Source of the DNA: Nocardioides acrostichi
GTDB lineage: Bacteria; Actinomycetota; Actinomycetes; Propionibacteriales; Nocardioidaceae
Reading direction: 5' to 3'
Assembly: GCF_015319165.1 (NCBI RefSeq)
Contig: NZ_JADIVZ010000001.1
Coordinates: forward strand, 806,001 to 870,000
Length of the DNA: 64,000 nucleotides
Under the pieces are notes generated by a model. That model was not told the DNA's origin. It saw only the letters and a list, made by a program, of their open reading frames with translations, and did not search any database. Made by a program: the position numbers and the translations under genes. Of the stretch, positions 28,750-49,215 are shown piece after piece; the stretch's first letter is position 1; every line of letters begins with the position of its first letter.

Positions 28750-29574
28750 ATGCCCGCACCGGTCTACGACGCCCACCGCCACATCGGTGTGCTGCCGGCC
28801 TTCGGCTTCTACGGAGGCCCGCCGGTCAGCCCCGACACGACGGCGCGCGCCACCGTGGCCGAGTTCGTCGCAGCACTCGACGCCGAGGGCATCGACCGCA
28901 CCCTGGTGCTCCCGAACTACGGCGTGCCGATCCCCGATGCGGCCTTCGACCTCAACCCCCTGGCCATCGAGGCCGCACAGGCCGACGACCGGGTCCGCTG
29001 CGGCCTCTGGGTCAGCCCCAAGGCCAGCGACCGCGAGCGCAACGATGCCGCGCTCGCGCTGGCCGGCGAGGACGGCGTCCGTGCGCTCAAGACCAGCTTC
29101 CTGCTCGGCGGCAGCCCGACCGACCCCGACTGTGCCGAGGAGCTGCACCGCATCTTCACCACCGCGGCCGAGCGCGACCTCGTGGTGCACGTGCACACCA
29201 GCCCGGGCGCGGCCAGCGACGTCGACCAGATCGGCACCCTGGTGGAGAGGTACGGCGACGACACGAAGATCCACCTGGTGCACCTCGGCGGCGGCATGAG
29301 CGGCCACCTCAAGCTCATCGGCGGCCGACTCTTCGACTGGATCGAGGCCGGCAAGCAGGTCTACACCGACACCTCGTGGTCGATCGGCTTCGCGCCCTCC
29401 TGGCTCATCGCCGAGATCGAGCGCCGCGGTGTCGGTCACGACCGCATCCTCTTCGCCACCGACATGCCCTGGGGCGACGTCGAGGGCGAGTACCACCGCC
29501 TCAGAGCGGCCACCGGCGACGGCGCCCTCGCCGACGCCTTCTTCCACCAGAACTTCGCGGCCCTCTACGACTGA
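28750..29574 (+). CDS. amidohydrolase family TIM-barrel protein
   Basis: A 274-residue metal-dependent hydrolase of the amidohydrolase-2 type. Likely metal ligands are His9 and His11 (DAHRHIG), HVHTS, HLGGGMSGH and the C-terminal aspartate in FATDMPWGD. It may hydrolyse an amide, lactone or decarboxylate a ring acid, all known in this family. It is the first gene of the nitrogen-starvation cluster, 86 bases before the Sll0783-like gene, and diverges from ohrR. Whether it is a regular part of this cluster elsewhere is not certain. Confidence 0.8.
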   Translation: MPAPVYDAHRHIGVLPAFGFYGGPPVSPDTTARATVAEFVAALDAEGIDRTLVLPNYGVPIPDAAFDLNPLAIEAAQADDRVRCGLWVSPKASDRERNDAALALAGEDGVRALKTSFLLGGSPTDPDCAEELHRIFTTAAERDLVVHVHTSPGAASDVDQIGTLVERYGDDTKIHLVHLGGGMSGHLKLIGGRLFDWIEAGKQVYTDTSWSIGFAPSWLIAEIERRGVGHDRILFATDMPWGDVEGEYHRLRAATGDGALADAFFHQNFAALYD

Positions 29575-29660: not shown

Positions 29661-30185
29661 ATGCCGACGTTCGACGACGAGATCATGGCCAACATCGAGA
29701 AGTCGGTGGCCGAGATCCCCCACCCCTCGCAGGCCCCGGGCACCAACCTCTACGGCAGCACCAAGATCTTCCCCGACTACCAGGCCGAAGGCGGCGAGTC
29801 CTACTTCACGCTCGTGCACGGCATCCCGCACGAGTCCTCGGTGAGCTTCGTGGCGGTGCTCCAGGCCACGCGCGCCCTGCGCAAGGGGTACGAGTCGGCC
29901 ATCTACTTCTACGGCCCGGGCGCCCTGGCGTGCATGGACACCCGCGGCTTCCCGACCACCGGCGACGTCGCGTTCCCGGGCAACCAGAACATGAACGACT
30001 CGATCAAGACCTTCATCGGCGAGGGTGGCACCGTGTTCTGCTGCCGCTTCGGCATGGCGCTGCACGGCTGCCGCGAGGAGGATCTCATCGAGGGCGTCAT
30101 CCCGGCGCACCCGCTCGACGTACAGGACGCCGTCATCCACTACGCCCGCAAGGGCGCCATCATCAACAGCACCTACAACCTCTGA
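29661..30185 (+). CDS. MSMEG_0572/Sll0783 family nitrogen starvation response protein (NitB-like)
   Basis: A 174-residue protein matching the Sll0783/MSMEG_0572 family: MPTFDDEIMANIEKSVAEIP, STKIFPDYQAEGGESYFTLVHGIPH..., FYGPGALACMDTRGFP, RFGMALHGCREEDLI. The Synechocystis member is needed for normal polyhydroxybutyrate accumulation during nitrogen starvation. Biochemical function is unknown. AAGGAG lies before the start. It is followed after 16 bases by the radical SAM gene. Confidence 0.88.
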   Translation: MPTFDDEIMANIEKSVAEIPHPSQAPGTNLYGSTKIFPDYQAEGGESYFTLVHGIPHESSVSFVAVLQATRALRKGYESAIYFYGPGALACMDTRGFPTTGDVAFPGNQNMNDSIKTFIGEGGTVFCCRFGMALHGCREEDLIEGVIPAHPLDVQDAVIHYARKGAIINSTYNL

Positions 30186-30201: not shown

Positions 30202-31344
30202 ATGACTGCCCCGACCCCCTCCGCGCCCCGAAGAGGAGCGGACGCCCGCCGCGTCGCCTCGACCCGCGTCGACGTCGCGATCCAGGGCATCCGGCTGCTC
30301 GACGCCCCCGTGGCTCGCCGCGCCGGCGCCGGCCCGAGCGACGACGGCCACGTGCTGCTCGAGGGGGTCGGCGCGGCCGTCCCGCTGAACCCCCGCAGTC
30401 CCTACTCGGTGCGCTCGGGTCGGCTGCTCCTCGACGGTGCCGACACCGGCCTCGGGGTCGAGGCCGTCGCCCGACCTCGTTTCTACGACCTCGCCACCGA
30501 CGACGGCGTGCCCTACGAGAAGATCGCGCGCCTGCACTCCGAGAGGGTGCTGGCCACCACCGTCGTACAGACCTGTGTGCGCTACGAGGAGGCGCAGCGC
30601 TGCCGCTTCTGCGCGATCGAGGAGTCGCTGCGCAACGACGCCACCGTGGCGGTCAAGAGTCCGGCGCAGCTCGCCGAGGTCGCGAAGGCCGCCGTGGAGC
30701 TCGACGGCGTCACGCAGATGGTGATGACCACGGGCACCAGCAACGGCCGCGACCGCGGGGCCACCCACCTGGCCCGGTGTGTGCGCGCGGTGCGCGAGGC
30801 CGTGCCCGACCTGCCGATCCAGGTGCAATGCGAGCCTCCGGGGGATCTGCGCACCATCACCGACCTCTACGAGGCGGGGGCCCGCTCCCTCGGCATCCAC
30901 GTCGAGTCTCTGGACGACGACGTGCGCCGCCGGGTGATGCCCGGCAAGGGCAGCGTGCCGATGGCGGAATATCGCGCTGCCTGGGCCGAGGCGGTGCGCG
31001 TCTTCGGCTGGAACCAGGTCTCGACCTACCTCATCGTCGGCCTCGGCGAGGATCCCGACGAGCTCGTCGCCGGTGCCGAGGAACTGATCGAGATGGGGGT
31101 CTACCCCTTCGTGGTGCCGTTCCGCCCCATCGCGGGCACCCTGGCCGTCGAGGTCGACGGCACCACGCCACCTCCGCACGAGGTCACCTACGACGTCACC
31201 CGGCGCGTGGCGGCCGCCCTGCGCCGAGCCGGCATGACCGGCGCCGACCAGGCCGCCGGGTGTGCCGCGTGCGGCGCGTGCTCCGCCCTGGGCTCGGCCG
31301 AAGAGGAACTGGGTACCACCCGCGCGTGCGAGGTGTCGGCATGA
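30202..31344 (+). CDS. MSMEG_0568 family radical SAM protein (NitD-like)
   Basis: A 380-residue radical SAM protein. The cluster-binding cysteines are Cys125, Cys134 and Cys137, spaced CX8CX2C instead of the usual CX3CX2C; this unusual spacing goes with the family. The C-terminus has a further Cys354-X2-Cys357-X2-Cys360 and Cys376, which may hold a second iron-sulfur cluster. Segments QVQCEPPGDL and GLGEDPDEL belong to the barrel. It presumably modifies a substrate in the Nit1C-type pathway; the reaction is unknown. ATGA overlap couples it to the next gene. Confidence 0.88.
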   Translation: MTAPTPSAPRRGADARRVASTRVDVAIQGIRLLDAPVARRAGAGPSDDGHVLLEGVGAAVPLNPRSPYSVRSGRLLLDGADTGLGVEAVARPRFYDLATDDGVPYEKIARLHSERVLATTVVQTCVRYEEAQRCRFCAIEESLRNDATVAVKSPAQLAEVAKAAVELDGVTQMVMTTGTSNGRDRGATHLARCVRAVREAVPDLPIQVQCEPPGDLRTITDLYEAGARSLGIHVESLDDDVRRRVMPGKGSVPMAEYRAAWAEAVRVFGWNQVSTYLIVGLGEDPDELVAGAEELIEMGVYPFVVPFRPIAGTLAVEVDGTTPPPHEVTYDVTRRVAAALRRAGMTGADQAAGCAACGACSALGSAEEELGTTRACEVSA

Positions 31345-32792
31345 GCGAGCTGTTGGCCCACGAAGTGGTGCTCACCGGAGCACCCCGCTTCACCGCCCAC
31401 GTCGATGCCGAGGCCTACGTCGTCGTCCCGGCCGAGTCGCTCGGCGATCTCACCGCCTATCGCCGGCTGCGGCGCGAGGTGTTCGTGCACGAGCAGGGTC
31501 TCTTCGCAGCAGACGACGCCGACGACGTGGACGACGACCCGCGCACCCGCGTGCTCGTCGCTCGCGCCCCGGGCGGCGAGGTGCTCGGCGGCGTGCGGCT
31601 GCACCCGACCACGCATCCCGCGGCCGGGGGGCGTGACCTCGGCTGGTGGACCGGCTCGCGGCTGGTCGTCGCCCGCGAGGCGCGGCTGCACCTCGGCGTC
31701 GGCGCCGCGCTGGTGCGCGCGGCCTGCGCCACCGCCGAGAGCCTGGGCGCGCTGCGCTTCGACGCGTGCGTGCAGGAGCCGAACGCCGTGTTGTTCCGCC
31801 GCCTGGGCTGGGTCGTGGGTGAGACCCTCGATCTGCACGGGCAGCCCCACGTGCGGGCCGAGTGGCCCGTGCGCCGCGTGCAGCGACTCGTCGAGAGCAC
31901 CAAGACCGCCCTGGGTGGGCTGCTCGGAGAGCTGACCTCGGCCCCCATGGGCGGTGGTGGGCCGGGCTTCGTCGGCGACGACGGCGCGCCGGTGCCCGGC
32001 ACCGACCTGGTCGCCGCGTGCGACGCGATCCTGCCCGCGATGGTCGAGCGCGACCCTGAGTGGGCCGGCTGGTGCTCGGTGCTGGTCAACCTCAACGACC
32101 TTGCCGCGATGGGTGCCGTGCCGGTCGGGCTCCTCGACGCCGTCGGCGCCCGCGACGCCTCCTTCGCTCGGCGCGTCCTGCGCGGGCTCGCCGACGCCGC
32201 GGCCGCCTGGGGCGTGCCCGTGCTCGGCGGCCACACCCAGCTCGGTGTGCCCGGTGCCCTCTCGGTGACCGCGCTCGGCCGTACCCACGCCGGCCTGCCC
32301 GCCCCGGTGCCGGGCGGCGGTGGTCGCGTCGGGCACCGGCTGCGGGTCACGGCCGACCTCGGCGGCTCCTGGCGGCCCGGTTACACCGGCCGGCAGTGGG
32401 ACTCCTCCTCGCACCGCACGCCTGCCGAGCTGCGCGCGCTGCTCGACGTCGTCCCGACCCTGGCGCCGACGGCGGCCAAGGACGTCTCGATGAGCGGACT
32501 GGTGGGCACCACCGGCATGCTCGCCGAGGCCAGCGGCTGCCGCGCCGTGCTCGACGTCGCGGCGATCCCACAGCCGCACGACGCCAGCACCGGCGACTGG
32601 CTCACCTGCTTCCCGGGGTTCGCGATGATCACCGCCGAGGACACGCCGCGCGACACCGCGGCGCTCCCCGACACCGTGACCTCGCGCGTCTGCGGCGAGC
32701 TCGCCGCCGGCTCTGGCGTGGGTCTGCGCTGGCCCGACGGCGTGGTCACGGAGTCGGTCGCGGCCGGCGTCACCGGGATGGGAGCGGCATGA
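31341..32792 (+). CDS. GNAT / AIR-synthase-like fusion (MSMEG_0567, Sll0786-Sll0787; NitE-NitF-like)
   Basis: A 483-residue protein joining two parts. Residues about 25-178 are a GNAT acyltransferase (YRRLRREVFVHEQGLF, LHLGVGAALVRAACATAESLG). Residues about 185-483 resemble PurM/AIR synthase (WCSVLVNLNDLAAMGAVPVGLLDAV, LGGHTQLGVPGALSVTALG). In other Nit1C clusters the two are separate genes. The fold suggests ATP-dependent activation of a substrate alongside acyl transfer. Start and stop both overlap neighbours by four bases. Confidence 0.88.
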   Translation: MSELLAHEVVLTGAPRFTAHVDAEAYVVVPAESLGDLTAYRRLRREVFVHEQGLFAADDADDVDDDPRTRVLVARAPGGEVLGGVRLHPTTHPAAGGRDLGWWTGSRLVVAREARLHLGVGAALVRAACATAESLGALRFDACVQEPNAVLFRRLGWVVGETLDLHGQPHVRAEWPVRRVQRLVESTKTALGGLLGELTSAPMGGGGPGFVGDDGAPVPGTDLVAACDAILPAMVERDPEWAGWCSVLVNLNDLAAMGAVPVGLLDAVGARDASFARRVLRGLADAAAAWGVPVLGGHTQLGVPGALSVTALGRTHAGLPAPVPGGGGRVGHRLRVTADLGGSWRPGYTGRQWDSSSHRTPAELRALLDVVPTLAPTAAKDVSMSGLVGTTGMLAEASGCRAVLDVAAIPQPHDASTGDWLTCFPGFAMITAEDTPRDTAALPDTVTSRVCGELAAGSGVGLRWPDGVVTESVAAGVTGMGAA

Positions 32793-33667
32793 GCAAGCAC
32801 ACCGCGGGGGTCGCCGCCGTCGCCGAGAGCTTCGGCCGCGACGTCGAGGCCAACCTGGCCCGCATCGCCGAGATCGTGGACGACGCCCGGGCGCGCGGCG
32901 TCCGGCTGCTCGCCCTGCCGGAGGCGGCACTCGGCGGGTACCTCTCGGTGCTCGGCGCCGGCCGCGACGGCGCCCACGACGAGCGGCCGGACTCCGTGCC
33001 GCCGGTCATGGACGTCGACGGCCCCGAGCTGCGCCGGGTCGCCGAGATCGCCCGAGAGATGACGGTCGTGGTCGGGTTCTGTGAGGGCGATCTGGGGGAG
33101 CGGTACAACTCCGCGGCCGTCGTCTCCGGCGATGGGGTGCACGGGGTCTACCGCAAGATCCACCAGCCGCTGGGCGAGAGCCTCTACTACGCGCCCGGCG
33201 AGACTCTGCGGGCCTTCGACACTCCGGCCGGCCGGCTCGGCATGCTGATCTGCTACGACAAGGCCTTTCCCGAAGCGGCCCGCGCGCTCGCGCTCGACGG
33301 GGCCGAGACGATCGCGTGCATCTCGGCCTGGCCCGCGTCGCGCACCGCCACCGCCGGCGACCTCGCCGAGGACCGTTGGACCAAGCGGTTCGACATCTTC
33401 GACGCCGCCCGTGCGCTGGAGAACCAGGTCGTGTGGCTGGCCTCGAACCAGTCGGGCACCTTCGGCTCGCTGCGGTTCGTTGCGTCGGCGAAGGTCGTCG
33501 GCCCGGGCGGCGACGTGCTCGCCTCCACCGGTCCACGGTCGGGTGTGGCCGTGGCACAGCTCGACGTGTCGGCGGCGCTCGAGACGGCGCGACGCTCGAT
33601 GTTCCACCTGGGCGACCGCCGTCCGGACCTCTACCCGACGCATGTGAGCGAGGGCAGCTATGCCTGA
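32789..33667 (+). CDS. nitrilase (NitC/Nit6803-like)
   Basis: A 292-residue nitrilase with the full triad: Glu45 in LPEAALGGY, Lys123 in YRKIHQPLGE and Cys155 in MLICYDKAFPE; Glu130 in QPLGE is the usual structural glutamate. It would hydrolyse a nitrile to acid and ammonia, or act on cyanide-derived compounds in related clusters. It lies in overlap with the GNAT/AIR fusion and with the small MSMEG_0570 gene. A second nitrilase-fold protein at 35300 has the same layout but lacks the cysteine. Confidence 0.92.
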   Translation: MSKHTAGVAAVAESFGRDVEANLARIAEIVDDARARGVRLLALPEAALGGYLSVLGAGRDGAHDERPDSVPPVMDVDGPELRRVAEIAREMTVVVGFCEGDLGERYNSAAVVSGDGVHGVYRKIHQPLGESLYYAPGETLRAFDTPAGRLGMLICYDKAFPEAARALALDGAETIACISAWPASRTATAGDLAEDRWTKRFDIFDAARALENQVVWLASNQSGTFGSLRFVASAKVVGPGGDVLASTGPRSGVAVAQLDVSAALETARRSMFHLGDRRPDLYPTHVSEGSYA

Positions 33668-33962
33668 GATGACCGTGACCGTGCGCTGGCCCGACGGCCG
33701 GATCGAGGAGTGCTACTCGCCCTCGCTGGTGATGCACGACCACCTCGAGGTCGGCGCCCGGTACTCCGTCGTCGACTTCACGGTCCGGTCGACCCACGCG
33801 CTCGATCTCGCGAGTGAGCGGGTGCGCGCGAGGTTCGGGTTCGCGTGCACCTCGGCCACCGCCAGCGCCGAGCAGATCCGCCGCTCGGCCTCCTCACATC
33901 GACCCGACGACCTCGTCGAGGTCGTACGCATGTGGCCCCCTCTCCCGCAGGAGCAGTCATGA
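33660..33962 (+). CDS. MSMEG_0570 family nitrogen starvation response protein (NitG-like)
   Basis: A 100-residue protein of the MSMEG_0570 type (MTVTVRWPDGRIEECYSPS, SERVRARFGFACTSATASAEQI). Function is unknown. It overlaps the nitrilase by eight bases and the flavin oxidoreductase by four, so it is translationally coupled. Its constant presence with the nitrilase suggests a partner or carrier role (inference). Confidence 0.88.
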   Translation: MPEMTVTVRWPDGRIEECYSPSLVMHDHLEVGARYSVVDFTVRSTHALDLASERVRARFGFACTSATASAEQIRRSASSHRPDDLVEVVRMWPPLPQEQS

Positions 33963-35290
33963 CCCAGATCTCCCCGGAATCACGCCCGAAGCACGTCGAT
34001 GTCGCGATCGTCGGTGGCGGCCAGGCCGGACTGGCGACCAGTTGGTATCTCACCCGCGACGGCGTCGACCACGTCGTCATCGAGGCGAGCACGGCAGCGC
34101 ACGAGTGGGCCGACACCCGCTGGGACGCCTTCACGCTGGTGACGCCCAACTGGCATTGCCGGCTGCCCGGGTACGCCTACGACGGCCCCGACCCCGACGG
34201 CTTCATGACGCGCGACGAGGTGGTGGCCTGGCTGGCCGGGTACGCGCCGTCCTTCGGACCGCCCCTGCTCGAGCACACCCGCGTCACCGCGCTGACCCAG
34301 ACCGAGGACGGCGGGTTCACCCTCACGACCCAAGGCCCGGACGGCGACCTCACCTGGCACGCGGGACAGGTGGTCGTGGCGACCGGCGGCTACCACGTGC
34401 CGATCGTGCCGCCGTGGGCTCCGGGGCTCGACCCGTCGATCGCCCAGATCCACTCCGCCGACTACAAGAACCCGCACAGCCTGCCCGAAGGCGAGGTGCT
34501 CGTGGTAGGTACCGGCCAGTCCGGCGCGCAGATCGCCGAGGATCTCCACCTCGCCGGCCGACGCGTGCACCTCGCACTCGGTGACGCGCCCCGGGTGGCG
34601 CGCACCTACCGTGGCCGCGACGCCATGACCTGGCTGGCCGACATGGGTCTCTACGACACCGCCGTCGCGCAGTACCCGGGCGGCCTCGCGGCGCGGGAGA
34701 AGACCAACCACTACGTCACCGGCCGCGACGGTGGTCGCGACATCGACCTGCGCGCCTTCGCGGCCGAGGGCATGCGCCTCTACGGCCTGCTCGACTCCCT
34801 CGAGTCGCCCGGTGGCTCGCTGGTGCGGTTCCAGCCCACGATGCGCGAGGCGCTGGAACGCGCCGACTCGGTCTACAACTCCATCTGCGGCGACATCGAC
34901 CGCTACATCGAGTCCCGCGGCATCGACGCACCGCCCGCCTCGCGCTACGAGCCCGTGTGGGAACCCGAGACCGAGCCCGCCTCCCTCGACCTGCGCGCTG
35001 CTGGCGTCACCAGCGTCGTGTGGGCGATCGGCTACCGGCCCGACTACCGCTGGGTGCAGGTCGGCGTCTTCGACGGCACCGGCCGCCCGACCCACACCCG
35101 CGGCGTCACCGAGGTTCCCGGTCTCTACTTCCTCGGTCTGCCCTGGCTGCACACGTGGGGCTCCGGGCGGTTCCTCGGCATCGCCACCGACGCCGAGCAC
35201 GTGGCGGGGCGCGCCGTGGCCCGGGTGCGGCCGCGTCGGTCGTCCGCGCGGGCCGGCATGTCGGTGATGGACGTCGCGGTGGCGGGCTAG
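33959..35290 (+). CDS. MSMEG_0569 family flavin-dependent oxidoreductase (NitH-like)
   Basis: A 443-residue flavoprotein similar in layout to flavin-containing monooxygenases. FAD motif: VGGGQAGLATSWYL near residue 17. NAD(P)H motif: VGTGQSGAQIAEDL near residue 182. ATGGYHVP and WAIGYRPDY are also present. It would oxidise a nitrogen- or sulfur-containing substrate in the Nit1C-type pathway. The start ATG overlaps the previous stop. The degenerate nitrilase gene begins nine bases after its stop. Confidence 0.9.
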   Translation: MTQISPESRPKHVDVAIVGGGQAGLATSWYLTRDGVDHVVIEASTAAHEWADTRWDAFTLVTPNWHCRLPGYAYDGPDPDGFMTRDEVVAWLAGYAPSFGPPLLEHTRVTALTQTEDGGFTLTTQGPDGDLTWHAGQVVVATGGYHVPIVPPWAPGLDPSIAQIHSADYKNPHSLPEGEVLVVGTGQSGAQIAEDLHLAGRRVHLALGDAPRVARTYRGRDAMTWLADMGLYDTAVAQYPGGLAAREKTNHYVTGRDGGRDIDLRAFAAEGMRLYGLLDSLESPGGSLVRFQPTMREALERADSVYNSICGDIDRYIESRGIDAPPASRYEPVWEPETEPASLDLRAAGVTSVVWAIGYRPDYRWVQVGVFDGTGRPTHTRGVTEVPGLYFLGLPWLHTWGSGRFLGIATDAEHVAGRAVARVRPRRSSARAGMSVMDVAVAG

Positions 35291-35299: not shown

Positions 35300-36193
35300 G
35301 TGGGGCAACTGCGCATCGGGGCCGTCGCGGCGCACTTCGGTCGCGACCTCAGCCGGGCGATCGACAAGCTCGAGGGCATCATCGGCGACGCCCGCCGGGC
35401 CGGCGTCGGGCTGCTGGTGCTGCCGGATGCCACGCTCGGCGGCTACCTCTCCGACCTGGCACGCCCCGACCCGATGGCGCTACCGCCGGGGCTGACCGAG
35501 AACTCCTTCGAGATCCGCCGGGTCTCGGCGATGGCCGGCCCGATGGTGGTATGTCTCGGCTACGCCGAGGAGGTCGTCGAGGCCGGCCAGGCGCTGCTCT
35601 ACAACTCCGCGGTGTGCGTGAGCGGCGACGGCGTGCTCGGCCGGCACCGCAAGGTGCACCAGCCCGCGGGGGAGTCGTTGGCCTACGCCGCCGGCACCCG
35701 CTTCACCGCGTTCGACACCCCGGTGGGGCGGCTGGGCATGCTCATCGACTACGACAAGACCTTCCCCGAGGCCGCCCGCAGCCTCGCTCTGGACGGCGCC
35801 ACGACGCTCGCCTGTCTCTCCGCCTGGCCCGCGTCGATCACCGACCGCGCCTCCCGGCTGCCCCAGGACCGGCAGTCGCGACTCTTCGACCTCTACGACC
35901 AGTCCCGCGCCGCGGAGAACCAGGTGGTGTGGGTCTCGTCGAACCAGACGGGCGTGATGGGCGGCCTGCGGTTCCTCGGCCAGGCGAAGGTGGTCGGGCC
36001 GGGCGGAGAGATCCTGGCGCGCACCACGTCGAAGGGCGGACTGGCCGTGGCCGAGCTCGACGTCGAGGCCGAGGTCGCGCGCTCGCGACGGATCCTGCAC
36101 CACCTCGCCGAGCTCGCGCCCAGCGCCTACAGCCAGTGCGGCGACCGGGATCTCGGCCGGGGCATCGACCAGTCCGCACGCTCCGGCGGCTGA
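35300..36193 (+). CDS. nitrilase-fold protein with lost catalytic cysteine (probable pseudoenzyme)
   Basis: A 297-residue homologue of the nitrilase encoded at 32789; the alignment is close (LPDATLGGY versus LPEAALGGY, HRKVHQPAGE versus YRKIHQPLGE, MLIDYDKTFPE versus MLICYDKAFPE). Lys118 is kept, but the nucleophile is Asp150 instead of cysteine (codon GAC, 35747-35749) and the general base is Asp43 (codon GAT, 35426-35428) instead of glutamate. Nitrilase catalysis by covalent thioimidate is therefore not possible. The frame is intact and the fold residues are conserved, so it is not a decaying gene. It may bind the product, form mixed filaments with the active nitrilase, or have new chemistry (all inference). 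Confidence 0.88.
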   Translation: MGQLRIGAVAAHFGRDLSRAIDKLEGIIGDARRAGVGLLVLPDATLGGYLSDLARPDPMALPPGLTENSFEIRRVSAMAGPMVVCLGYAEEVVEAGQALLYNSAVCVSGDGVLGRHRKVHQPAGESLAYAAGTRFTAFDTPVGRLGMLIDYDKTFPEAARSLALDGATTLACLSAWPASITDRASRLPQDRQSRLFDLYDQSRAAENQVVWVSSNQTGVMGGLRFLGQAKVVGPGGEILARTTSKGGLAVAELDVEAEVARSRRILHHLAELAPSAYSQCGDRDLGRGIDQSARSGG

Positions 36194-36194
36194 C

Positions 36195-37289
36195 GTGCGG
36201 ATCGCGCTGCTCACCTACTCCACCCGACCTCGTGGCGGGGTCGTGCACACCCTCCACCTCGCCGAGGCGCTGGCCGACCTCGGCGAGGAGGTGCACGTGT
36301 GGACCCTGGGCCGCGGTGGCGACACCACGTTCTTCCGGTCCGTCGACCCCCGGGTGCACGTGCACGCGGTTGCGTTCGAGGATCCCGACGACGACGTGGG
36401 TGCGCGCATCCTGCGCTCCATCGACCTGCTGCGCGGGGCCCTGGCGCCGCACGTGGAGGGCTACGACGTGGTGCACGCCCAGGACTGCATCTCGGCCAAC
36501 GCGGTGCTCGAGCTCGCTCCGTTCGTGCGCACCGTGCACCACCTCGACACCTTTACCACGCCGGAGTTGGTCGCGTGCCACGAGCGCGCCGTCCGGCGGC
36601 CCGATGCGCTGGTGTGCGTCTCTGCCGCGGTGGCTGCGGAGGTGCAGGCGGAGTACGGGCGGCCCGCCACGGTGATCCCGAACGGCGTGGCCGCCGAGCG
36701 GTTCGCGGCCGGGGCAACCGACGACGACGGCCGCGCGCTGTGGCGGGCGCAACTGGGTCGCTACGTGCTGGCCCTGGGGGGCATCGAGCCCCGCAAGGGC
36801 AGCCTCGACCTGCTCGAGGCGATGGCGCTCGTGCGCCGCTCGCGCCCCACCCTGGCCGACGTCCGACTGGTGTTCGGTGGGGGAGAGACCCTCTTCGACT
36901 ACCGCGACTACCGCGCCGAGTTCGAGCGGCGTGCGGTCGAGCTCGGCGTCGAGCCGCTGGTGCTCGGGCCGGTGCCGGACGACGACTTGCCGTCGCTGCT
37001 GGCGCAGGCCGCCGCGCTGCCGTTCCTCTCCACCAAGGAGGGCTTCGGGCTCGCCGCACTCGAGGCATTGGCCGCGGGCACCCCGGTGGTCGCGCGCGAT
37101 CTGCCGGTGCTGCGGGAGGTGTTGGGCGAGGCGGTCGCCTACGGCGACGGGCCGTCGTCCTTCGCCGAGGCACTCGCGCGGGTGATCGAGGCACCGCCGC
37201 CCGTCGATACCGGGCAGGCGCTGGCGCAGCGCTACACGTGGCCGGCGGCCGCGGCCTCGCACCTGCGGTTCTACGCTGGCGAGCAATAG
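36195..37289 (+). CDS. MSMEG_0565 family glycosyltransferase
   Basis: A 364-residue GT-B enzyme of family 4. The opening MRIALLTYSTRPRGGVVHTLHLAEAL and the donor-binding stretch FVSTKEGFGLAALEALAAGTPVVARDLPVLREVLG are conserved. It begins one base after the previous stop at GTG 36195. The MSMEG_0565 branch is found next to this nitrogen-starvation cluster in mycobacteria, suggesting that the pathway yields or uses a glycosylated molecule. The sugar and acceptor are unknown. Confidence 0.88.
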   Translation: MRIALLTYSTRPRGGVVHTLHLAEALADLGEEVHVWTLGRGGDTTFFRSVDPRVHVHAVAFEDPDDDVGARILRSIDLLRGALAPHVEGYDVVHAQDCISANAVLELAPFVRTVHHLDTFTTPELVACHERAVRRPDALVCVSAAVAAEVQAEYGRPATVIPNGVAAERFAAGATDDDGRALWRAQLGRYVLALGGIEPRKGSLDLLEAMALVRRSRPTLADVRLVFGGGETLFDYRDYRAEFERRAVELGVEPLVLGPVPDDDLPSLLAQAAALPFLSTKEGFGLAALEALAAGTPVVARDLPVLREVLGEAVAYGDGPSSFAEALARVIEAPPPVDTGQALAQRYTWPAAAASHLRFYAGEQ

Positions 37290-40595: not shown

Positions 40596-41806
40596 GCTCA
40601 CCGGGCGCGGCCGGCACCTGGACGCCGTGGCGCACCGTCGTCGCGTTCGGCGTGGTGTCGCTGGCGGCCGACATGGTCTACGAGGGCATGCGCTCGGTGA
40701 CCGGCCCGTTCCTGGTCTCGCTGGGGGCCAGCGCGCTGGTGGTCGGGTTGGTGACCGGTGCCGGTGAGGGCGTCGCGCTGCTCCTGCGGCTCGCCGTCGG
40801 GCCGGCTGCAGATCGCAGCGGTCGGCACTGGCGCTATGCCACAGCGGGCTACGGACTCACCGCGGTGAGCGTGCCGCTCCTGGCCCTCACCCCCTTCCTG
40901 GGCGCGGCCGGGCTCGCGGTCGCGTGCGCCCTGGTGCTGGCCGAGCGCACCGGCAAGGCGGTGCGCTCGCCGTCGAAGTCGGCGCTGCTGGCCGGCATCG
41001 CGAAGGACGTCGGCCGCGGGCGTGGCTTCGCGGTGCACAAGGCGCTGGACCAGGTGGGCGCCTTCGCCGGACCGCTCCTTGTGGCCGGTGTCGCGCTCGT
41101 GGCCGGGCACCGCTTGTGGGCCGGACTCGCGTTGCTCGCGGTGCCGGGTGCGGTGTCGATGGCCCTGCTGACGAGGTTGCGACGGCGTGCGCCGATCGAG
41201 GGGCGACCGCCCTCTCGCCGAGCGGATCGCTCCCCGACGGCCCGGTTGCCGCGGCGGTTCTGGGTGCTCGCCGCGGGCGCCGCCCTGAGCACGGTGGGCC
41301 TCATGACGTTCGGCGTGCTCTCGGTGGTCGTGGTGCGTGGCGGCGTGCTCTCCGCGGCGGTCGTACCCGTGGCGTACGCCGGGGCGATGGTGGTCGAGGC
41401 GGTGGCGGCGCTCGGCGCCGGGTGGGCCTACGACCGGGTGGGCGCCGCGGTGCTGCTGGGGGTGCCCGTCATCGTGGCCGGGGTGCCGGTGCTGCTGCTC
41501 GGTGCCGCGCTCCCGTTGACGCTCGCCACGGTGGGGGTCGGATTGGCGTCGTGGGGCGCGGCGACCGGGCTGCAGGACTCGGTCGTCAAGGCCTTCGTGG
41601 CCGACGTCGCCCCGAGCGACCGGCTCGGCGCCGCCTACGGCTGGTTCGCGGCCGTCCAGGGCACGGCCGCCTTCGTCGGCGGGGGTGTGGCCGGCGCGCT
41701 GCTCGGTCACCGCGGCGTGCTGGTCGTCGTCCTCGTCACGGCGCAGGTGGCGGCGCTGGTGGTGTTCGCGGTGGCAGTTCTCGACCCCTCGAGGCGCGAT
41801 TCCTGA
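40592..41806 (+). CDS. MFS transporter
   Basis: A 404-residue membrane protein of the major facilitator superfamily with about twelve hydrophobic segments and the loop VGPAADRSGRHWRYATAGYGL. It overlaps the GNAT gene and is probably cotranslated. Its last residues (DPSRRDS) and the stop TGA at 41804 are encoded by 22-bp repeat units, so the 3' end has been remodelled by the repeat array. Substrate unknown. Confidence 0.85.
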   Translation: MSSPGAAGTWTPWRTVVAFGVVSLAADMVYEGMRSVTGPFLVSLGASALVVGLVTGAGEGVALLLRLAVGPAADRSGRHWRYATAGYGLTAVSVPLLALTPFLGAAGLAVACALVLAERTGKAVRSPSKSALLAGIAKDVGRGRGFAVHKALDQVGAFAGPLLVAGVALVAGHRLWAGLALLAVPGAVSMALLTRLRRRAPIEGRPPSRRADRSPTARLPRRFWVLAAGAALSTVGLMTFGVLSVVVVRGGVLSAAVVPVAYAGAMVVEAVAALGAGWAYDRVGAAVLLGVPVIVAGVPVLLLGAALPLTLATVGVGLASWGAATGLQDSVVKAFVADVAPSDRLGAAYGWFAAVQGTAAFVGGGVAGALLGHRGVLVVVLVTAQVAALVVFAVAVLDPSRRDS

Positions 41807-41844
41807 CCCCTCGGGGGACGATGCGCGACCCCTCGCGGATTCAG
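41782..41844. repeat. 22-bp repeat family B, three units
   Basis: Units start at 41782, 41804 and 41826 with YGACCCCTCG, followed by AGG, GGG or CGG. They span the end of the MFS gene and reach the stop codon of the convergent uppP gene, and carry stop codons for both. Confidence 0.85.
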
Positions 41845-45769: not shown

Positions 45770-45830
45770 CCCGTCACGAGTGGCGCAGGCACTGACCCCT
45801 CGAGGCGCGATGTGCGACCCCTCGCGGTCT
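45723..45830. repeat. 22-bp repeat array, families A then B
   Basis: Family A units start at 45723, 45745 and 45767 (TGACCCGTCACGA and a partly different third end). Family B units start at 45793 and 45815 (YGACCCCTCG). The array lies between the PIG-L deacetylase and the convergent aldehyde dehydrogenase, and supplies the deacetylase stop. Confidence 0.85.
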
Positions 45831-48107: not shown

Positions 48108-48195
48108 CGACCCTCGAGCGACGATGTGCGACCCCTCGCGGGACGATGTGCGACCCCTCGCGGGACGATGTCCGACCCCTCGCGGGTGACGGGTG
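48108..48195. repeat. 22-bp repeat family B, four units
   Basis: Units start at 48108 (one base short), 48129, 48151 and 48173 with CGACCCCTCG; the middle ones continue CGGGACGATGT. The last ends GGGTGACGGGTG, a piece seen inverted in family A. The array fills the convergent gap between a membrane protein and a hydrolase. Confidence 0.9.
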
Positions 48196-49105: not shown

Positions 49106-49148
49106 CTGCCCATGGTGCGCCCCGTTCCCTGAACCCGGTGACCGCGAT

Positions 49149-49215
49149 CGACCCCTCGAGGGACAATTCGCGACCCCTCGAGGGACGATTCGCGACCCCT
49201 CGCGGGTGATGGGTG
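49149..49215. repeat. 22-bp repeat family B, three units
   Basis: Units start at 49149, 49171 and 49193 with CGACCCCTCG; the first two continue AGGG and end ATTCG, the third ends GGGTGATGGGTG as in the array at 48173. This array lies in a divergent gap, unlike most of the others. Confidence 0.88.

Follow-up and report, generated by a model that had tools for sequence, protein, structure and literature searches.

The MSMEG_0565-0572 genes of M. smegmatis form the gpr (GlnR-dependent peroxide resistance) cluster (PMC6039565). Under nitrogen starvation, GlnR strongly induces this cluster, and mutants without it survive peroxide less well and have a lower NADPH/NADP ratio; attempts at pinning the phenotype to single genes failed (PMC6039565). 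The mutant phenotype (peroxide survival and NADPH balance) is known, while the chemistry of the cluster is not. One of the genes, MSMEG_0566, is annotated as an "aliphatic amidase" and is induced by nitrogen starvation (PMC4222082, PMC4617892), and its product has been treated as an amidase able to supply nitrogen (PMC6039565). A second described system is the Nit1C cluster (BMC Evol Biol 2005; PMC1199592). It shares the Sll0783-type, radical SAM, GNAT, AIR-like, MSMEG_0570-type, and FAD families with the locus that we report here. However, Nit1C has one subfamily-1 nitrilase (TIGR04048), whereas our locus has two other CN hydrolases, one of which lacks the catalytic Cys.

Our window is a 64,000-nucleotide stretch of the Nocardioides acrostichi genome, and the features of its cluster are listed in Table 1. 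We use NIT for the intact CN hydrolase and PSN for its Cys-less paralogue. Genes matching TIGR04042 to TIGR04047 and TIGR04050 lie together between 29661 and 37289, and all of them score over the cut-off. On these profile matches, we classify the cluster as MSMEG_0565-0572 (gpr) type, with an active enzyme other than a Nit1C/Nit6803 nitrilase. The original prediction had called the cluster Nit1C-type. This was inexact: the accessory genes are those of the MSMEG_0565-0572 set, but the active enzyme is an AguB-like CN hydrolase. Against TIGR04048, the Nit6803 nitrilase profile, NIT scores 47 bits where the cut-off is 502.6, PSN gives no match at an E value of 0.001, and none of the 12 genomes checked has a match above the cut-off. 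These scores rule out canonical Nit1C membership.

Table 1. The cluster in the window and the altered nucleophile codon
Feature	Position	Strand	Details
Amidohydrolase-like protein, cluster head	28750..29574	+	No NCBIfam match
MSMEG_0572/Sll0783 family protein	29661..30185	+	TIGR04044, 238 bits, over cut-off
MSMEG_0568 family radical SAM protein	30202..31344	+	TIGR04043, 510 bits, over cut-off
MSMEG_0567 family protein, GNAT domain fused to AIR-synthase-like domain	31341..32792	+	TIGR04045 and TIGR04050, over cut-off
NIT, intact CN hydrolase, AguB-like	32789..33667	+	E45-K123-C155; 292 aa
MSMEG_0570 family nitrogen starvation response protein	33660..33962	+	TIGR04042, 116 bits, over cut-off
MSMEG_0569 family flavin-dependent oxidoreductase (FAD)	33959..35290	+	TIGR04046, 631 bits, over cut-off
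PSN, nitrilase-fold paralogue	35300..36193	+	GTG start, 297 aa, open frame
PSN nucleophile codon GAC	35747-35749	+	Asp150
MSMEG_0565 family glycosyltransferase (GT)	36195..37289	+	TIGR04047, 444 bits, over cut-off; directly downstream of PSN

The gene families are those of the gpr cluster, and the difference lies in an extra amidohydrolase and another gene order. The amidohydrolase-like gene stands outside the MSMEG_0565-0572 set and has a homologue at 63 of 123 PSN loci. The gpr order itself is found at loci such as L136: across L134-L136 the genes run Sll0783-type, NIT, (0570), FAD, radical SAM, GNAT-AIR, PSN, GT, which is MSMEG_0572 to MSMEG_0565. By position and synteny only, we infer that MSMEG_0566, which lies between the glycosyltransferase and MSMEG_0567, is PSN and that MSMEG_0571 is NIT. 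On this synteny, MSMEG_0566 should lack the catalytic Cys. For MSMEG_0571, a selenoprotein made by readthrough of its UGA stop into MSMEG_0569 has been proposed (PMC6039565); the conserved separate NIT, MSMEG_0570-type, and FAD genes make an ordinary stop more likely. A search for a GlnR-type box upstream of the cluster gave 17 rough-pattern matches against 11 expected, no clear excess over chance.

PSN aligns with NIT along its length, as the original prediction had stated: BLASTP gives 53% identity across 281 columns (E value, 8e-96) and pairs Asp150 (GAC) with Cys155 (TGC), Asp43 with Glu45, and Lys118 with Lys123. In an alignment with the solved archaeal structure 1j31 (PH0642), D150, D43, and K118 take the places of the catalytic Cys, Glu, and Lys, respectively, and E125 matches the second active-site Glu, so PSN has D43-K118-E125-D150 instead of an E-K-E-C site. 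Both predicted replacements and the intact frame were therefore borne out. That the Lys is retained was correct but incomplete, since E125 is kept as well. PSN belongs to the nitrilase superfamily by its domain (PF00795, CN_hydrolase, 105 bits, over the cut-off; 125 bits for NIT) and lacks the Glu-Lys-Cys catalytic triad of that superfamily, with D43-K118-D150 in its place. Its predicted model is a confident alpha-beta-beta-alpha nitrilase fold (pLDDT 91.3), as is that of NIT (pLDDT 91.5). The best structural match of the PSN model is 6ypa, with a Z score of 36 and an rmsd of 1.5 over 254 residues. The Pyrococcus amidase/nitrilase PH0642 and its relatives (1j31, 6ypa, and 3ivz) share this fold (Z, 35-36; rmsd, 1.5-1.6), but they are only 26-27% identical, and their wild-type forms have the catalytic E-K-C.

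Our scan of bacterial and archaeal genomes turned up 424 relatives, and we read the best 80 loci; the nucleophile was Asp in all of these best 80. Because one of the six search patterns held the nucleophile Asp, this set alone is biased. Whole-protein similarity searches yielded 32 further PSN, which, like that of the window, all have Asp. In total, Asp stands at the nucleophile in 113 of 113 PSN and Cys in 110 of 110 NIT. The Lys is invariant in both groups, and E125 is kept in 112 of the 113 PSN. The general-base position is less uniform in PSN (D in 99, G in 7, H in 3, Y in 2, and Q in 2; n = 113). In a tree of 89 representatives, PSN forms one clade (SH-aLRT 96) in which the 38 representatives come from many actinobacterial families and one from another class, so the clade reaches at least one further class. 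Several independent losses of the Cys are unsupported by this tree, which indicates that Cys changed to Asp once, long ago, in the single PSN clade.

We estimated selection as pairwise omega by the Nei-Gojobori method, with codon bias uncorrected and with loci picked by similarity to PSN. The median omega was 0.34 for PSN and 0.42 for NIT, and PSN was below NIT in 2,123 of 2,621 pairs. Columns conserved at 95% or above make up 39% of PSN and 26% of NIT. At six loci of a related lineage in which NIT is unlinked or duplicated, PSN omega was 0.03 to 0.09. Purifying selection on PSN is strong. The bare absence of a Cys could also reflect a nitrilase copy in decay or an error in sequencing, and such a local loss can be ruled out. 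The change from TGC to GAC requires two base substitutions, and all 81 PSN genes examined at codon level carry GAC (NIT has TGC or TGT), which excludes a sequencing error or a single recent mutation. With both changes fixed in all homologues, the frames intact, and omega far below 1, we give local loss practically no weight. The original prediction had suggested looking for a conserved Cys-to-Asp branch under purifying selection, which is what we found, and had named Cys in homologues or decay elsewhere as the signs of a local loss; instead, all PSN carry Asp and selection on them is strong.

A catalytic residue that is gone in a clade still under purifying selection marks PSN as a putative pseudoenzyme, and the reading that it is a real, conserved one is well supported by these sequences. 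Because the catalytic thiol is lost, PSN would be without the usual thioester mechanism, and Cys-thioester hydrolysis appears to be ruled out. Of the predicted "maintained non-catalytic paralogue," the first half stands, given Asp in every PSN and the omega values. We infer the second half, and the invariant D150 and K118 with the near-invariant E125 leave room for another activity. In databases, PSN is named "carbon-nitrogen hydrolase," as an ordinary hydrolase would be. If PSN is a pseudoenzyme, this annotation and that of its likely counterpart MSMEG_0566 as an "aliphatic amidase" are wrong, and so is the nitrogen-supply pathway model derived from them. A search of the open literature, covering few subscription papers, found no earlier account of a Cys-less nitrilase. 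The pair of PSN and NIT within a nitrogen-starvation cluster is common to many soil actinobacteria, and its PSN member appears undescribed in that literature. Here nature provides a clean example of a pseudoenzyme that has stayed next to the active enzyme it came from across a large part of a phylum.

We then considered what PSN does. Our preferred reading, held tentatively and at a little under even confidence, is that PSN is an ancient non-hydrolyzing paralogue of NIT whose pocket is ligand-ready and which acts together with NIT, perhaps within a hetero-oligomer as one of its subunits. PSN would have arisen by an ancient duplication of the cluster's own CN hydrolase, and its Cys changed to Asp once while the Lys and the second Glu stayed. 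With the thiol gone, it would no longer hydrolyze through a Cys thioester, and its pocket would remain ready for a ligand. It would then work with NIT, in the simplest form as a non-catalytic subunit of a mixed nitrilase-fold oligomer joined through the A-surface helices, in which it might tune how stable, specific, or active NIT is in the nitrogen-starvation pathway.

Enzymes of the nitrilase fold assemble into oligomers through the helices just after the nucleophile, and one helix in that position, a5, is part of the usual dimer surface of the fold. In this helix, the most frequent residue of PSN matches that of NIT in 12 of 13 columns. A mixed complex is known from sorghum, where NIT4A and NIT4B are heteromeric nitrilases active together (PMC5154151). 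They resemble our pair in being two nitrilase-fold paralogues, but these plant branch-1 nitrilases are only distantly related. Both sorghum isoforms reportedly keep the catalytic Cys. Given the oligomers of the fold and the sorghum complexes, the simplest use for a twin that lacks the Cys would be in a mixed oligomer, and a subunit function of PSN, regulatory or structural in the original prediction, is plausible.

If PSN acts with NIT, the two genes should be retained together, and they largely are. In the class sample, 34 genomes have a full-length PSN and 33 of these also have NIT. Within the window's own genus, a full-length PSN is present in 35 of 197 genomes, all 35 with a second match, and in a second family, counted by number of matches, in 80 of 301, all 80 with at least two. 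Pooled with shared genomes removed, about 139 genomes have a full-length PSN and 138 have a NIT-like match. This co-occurrence is expected anyway because the genes share one operon. In genomes G964, G1057, and G753, NIT lies in a separate locus from PSN and both genes are intact; these unlinked cases may stem from one or two events. G1103 has a wrecked cluster with no NIT left, and its PSN is a broken fragment adjoining TnpB-like sequence. Along with these cases, the conservation of PSN, its single clade, its purifying selection, its nitrilase fold, and the shared a5 residues argue for PSN acting with NIT.

Other genomes argue against the pairing. In the class sample, 16 genomes have NIT and lack PSN, so NIT can do without it. 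Conversely, G028 (98% complete) lacks NIT but carries, away from any cluster, an orphan PSN (L133:8342-9205) that is intact and retains both D-K-D and the signature of helix a6. These genomes, one with an orphan PSN and 16 with NIT only, speak against an obligate pair. They are also natural controls that allow a direct test of what a nitrilase pseudoenzyme does. Rate covariation does not discriminate between possible partners, and NIT does not stand out in it: partial r with PSN is 0.22 for NIT, 0.31 for FAD, 0.31 for GAT, and 0.13 for GT. We rejected the NIT residues C98, W197, G240, and M271, at first sight specific to PSN-bearing genomes, as an interface signal; the PSN-less loci L130 and L132, which fall within paired groups, keep them, so the signal is mainly phylogenetic.

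Gene order raises the question of whether PSN has a different partner. NIT directly precedes PSN at 23 of 76 loci, and at 21 of the 76 the two abut or overlap (spacing, -19 to +7 nucleotides), which is in favor of joint action. However, the constant neighbor of PSN is the MSMEG_0565 glycosyltransferase, not NIT: in all 119 loci where the gene after PSN was seen, that gene is GT, mostly with an overlap of 4 or 1 nucleotides, also where NIT has moved away. PSN might then be a partner or scaffold of GT rather than of NIT. We think this improbable, since NIT-only clusters keep GT without PSN and GT has the lowest covariation with PSN of the four genes compared. We know of no nitrilase-fold partner of GT4 enzymes.

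The arrangement of the cluster also varies among loci. In three cases, it is split over two loci (L171/L172, L173/L174, and L176/L177), with NIT and FAD in one, radical SAM, GNAT-AIR, PSN, and GT in the other, and an own Sll0783-type gene in each; the L176/L177 cluster has two NIT genes. The family f19 clusters (L117-L129) have NIT and lack PSN, and those f19 loci that were examined also lack the MSMEG_0569 flavoprotein, with a different FAD-binding protein in its stead between NIT and GT. PSN is also carried on four large Rhodococcus plasmids. One of these, L137, is the annotated Rhodococcus qingshengii plasmid pN9T4-1, and because the whole cluster is present on it, the cluster can move between strains.

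The main rival to joint action with NIT is that PSN has gained a separate, new function. It would then bind a ligand, or be an enzyme with a D150-K118-E125(-D43) site, and would act alone on a conserved metabolite of the cluster. By their titles, the structures 6ypa, 8hpc, and 5h8l are of Cys-mutant nitrilase-fold proteins that still bind ligands. The pocket can thus bind without the thiol. This, together with the genomes that speak against an obligate pair, makes a ligand-binding or new catalytic role the main rival. The near-invariance of D150, K118, and E125 points the same way, as does the orphan PSN of G028 with its retained signature. Q192, L195, A205, T154, D197, R183, R186, D52, and P56 are fixed in PSN and variable or different in NIT, and T217 is also among the residues invariant in PSN only. 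The PSN-fixed residues map to helix a6 and to two loops, the base loop and the one over the pocket, and in these segments PSN is the more conserved of the two proteins; their placement as pocket-side is based on predicted secondary structure and general knowledge of the fold.

Three points count against this rival. The general base is not fixed, which would be odd for a catalytic acid/base; retention of PSN tracks NIT in nearly all of the pooled genomes; and an Asp nucleophile acting on an amide or nitrile would give an anhydride, for which we know of no precedent in the nitrilase family. We consider a function of PSN's own possible but appreciably less probable than action with NIT. A narrower form, in which PSN is an enzyme with Asp for the Cys nucleophile and new Asp-Lys-Glu chemistry on an intermediate of the nitrogen-starvation pathway, seems unlikely to us.

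Elsewhere in the window, a 22-bp unit (about ACGATnnnCGACCCCTCGnGG) is repeated in tandem, two to three copies per array, at 41774-41843, 45785-45830, 48121-48186, and 49141-49206. Across the whole genome, we counted its core pattern 174 times, against once for the reversed control; the matches often form runs spaced 22 bp apart, and the unit is possibly a repeat family.
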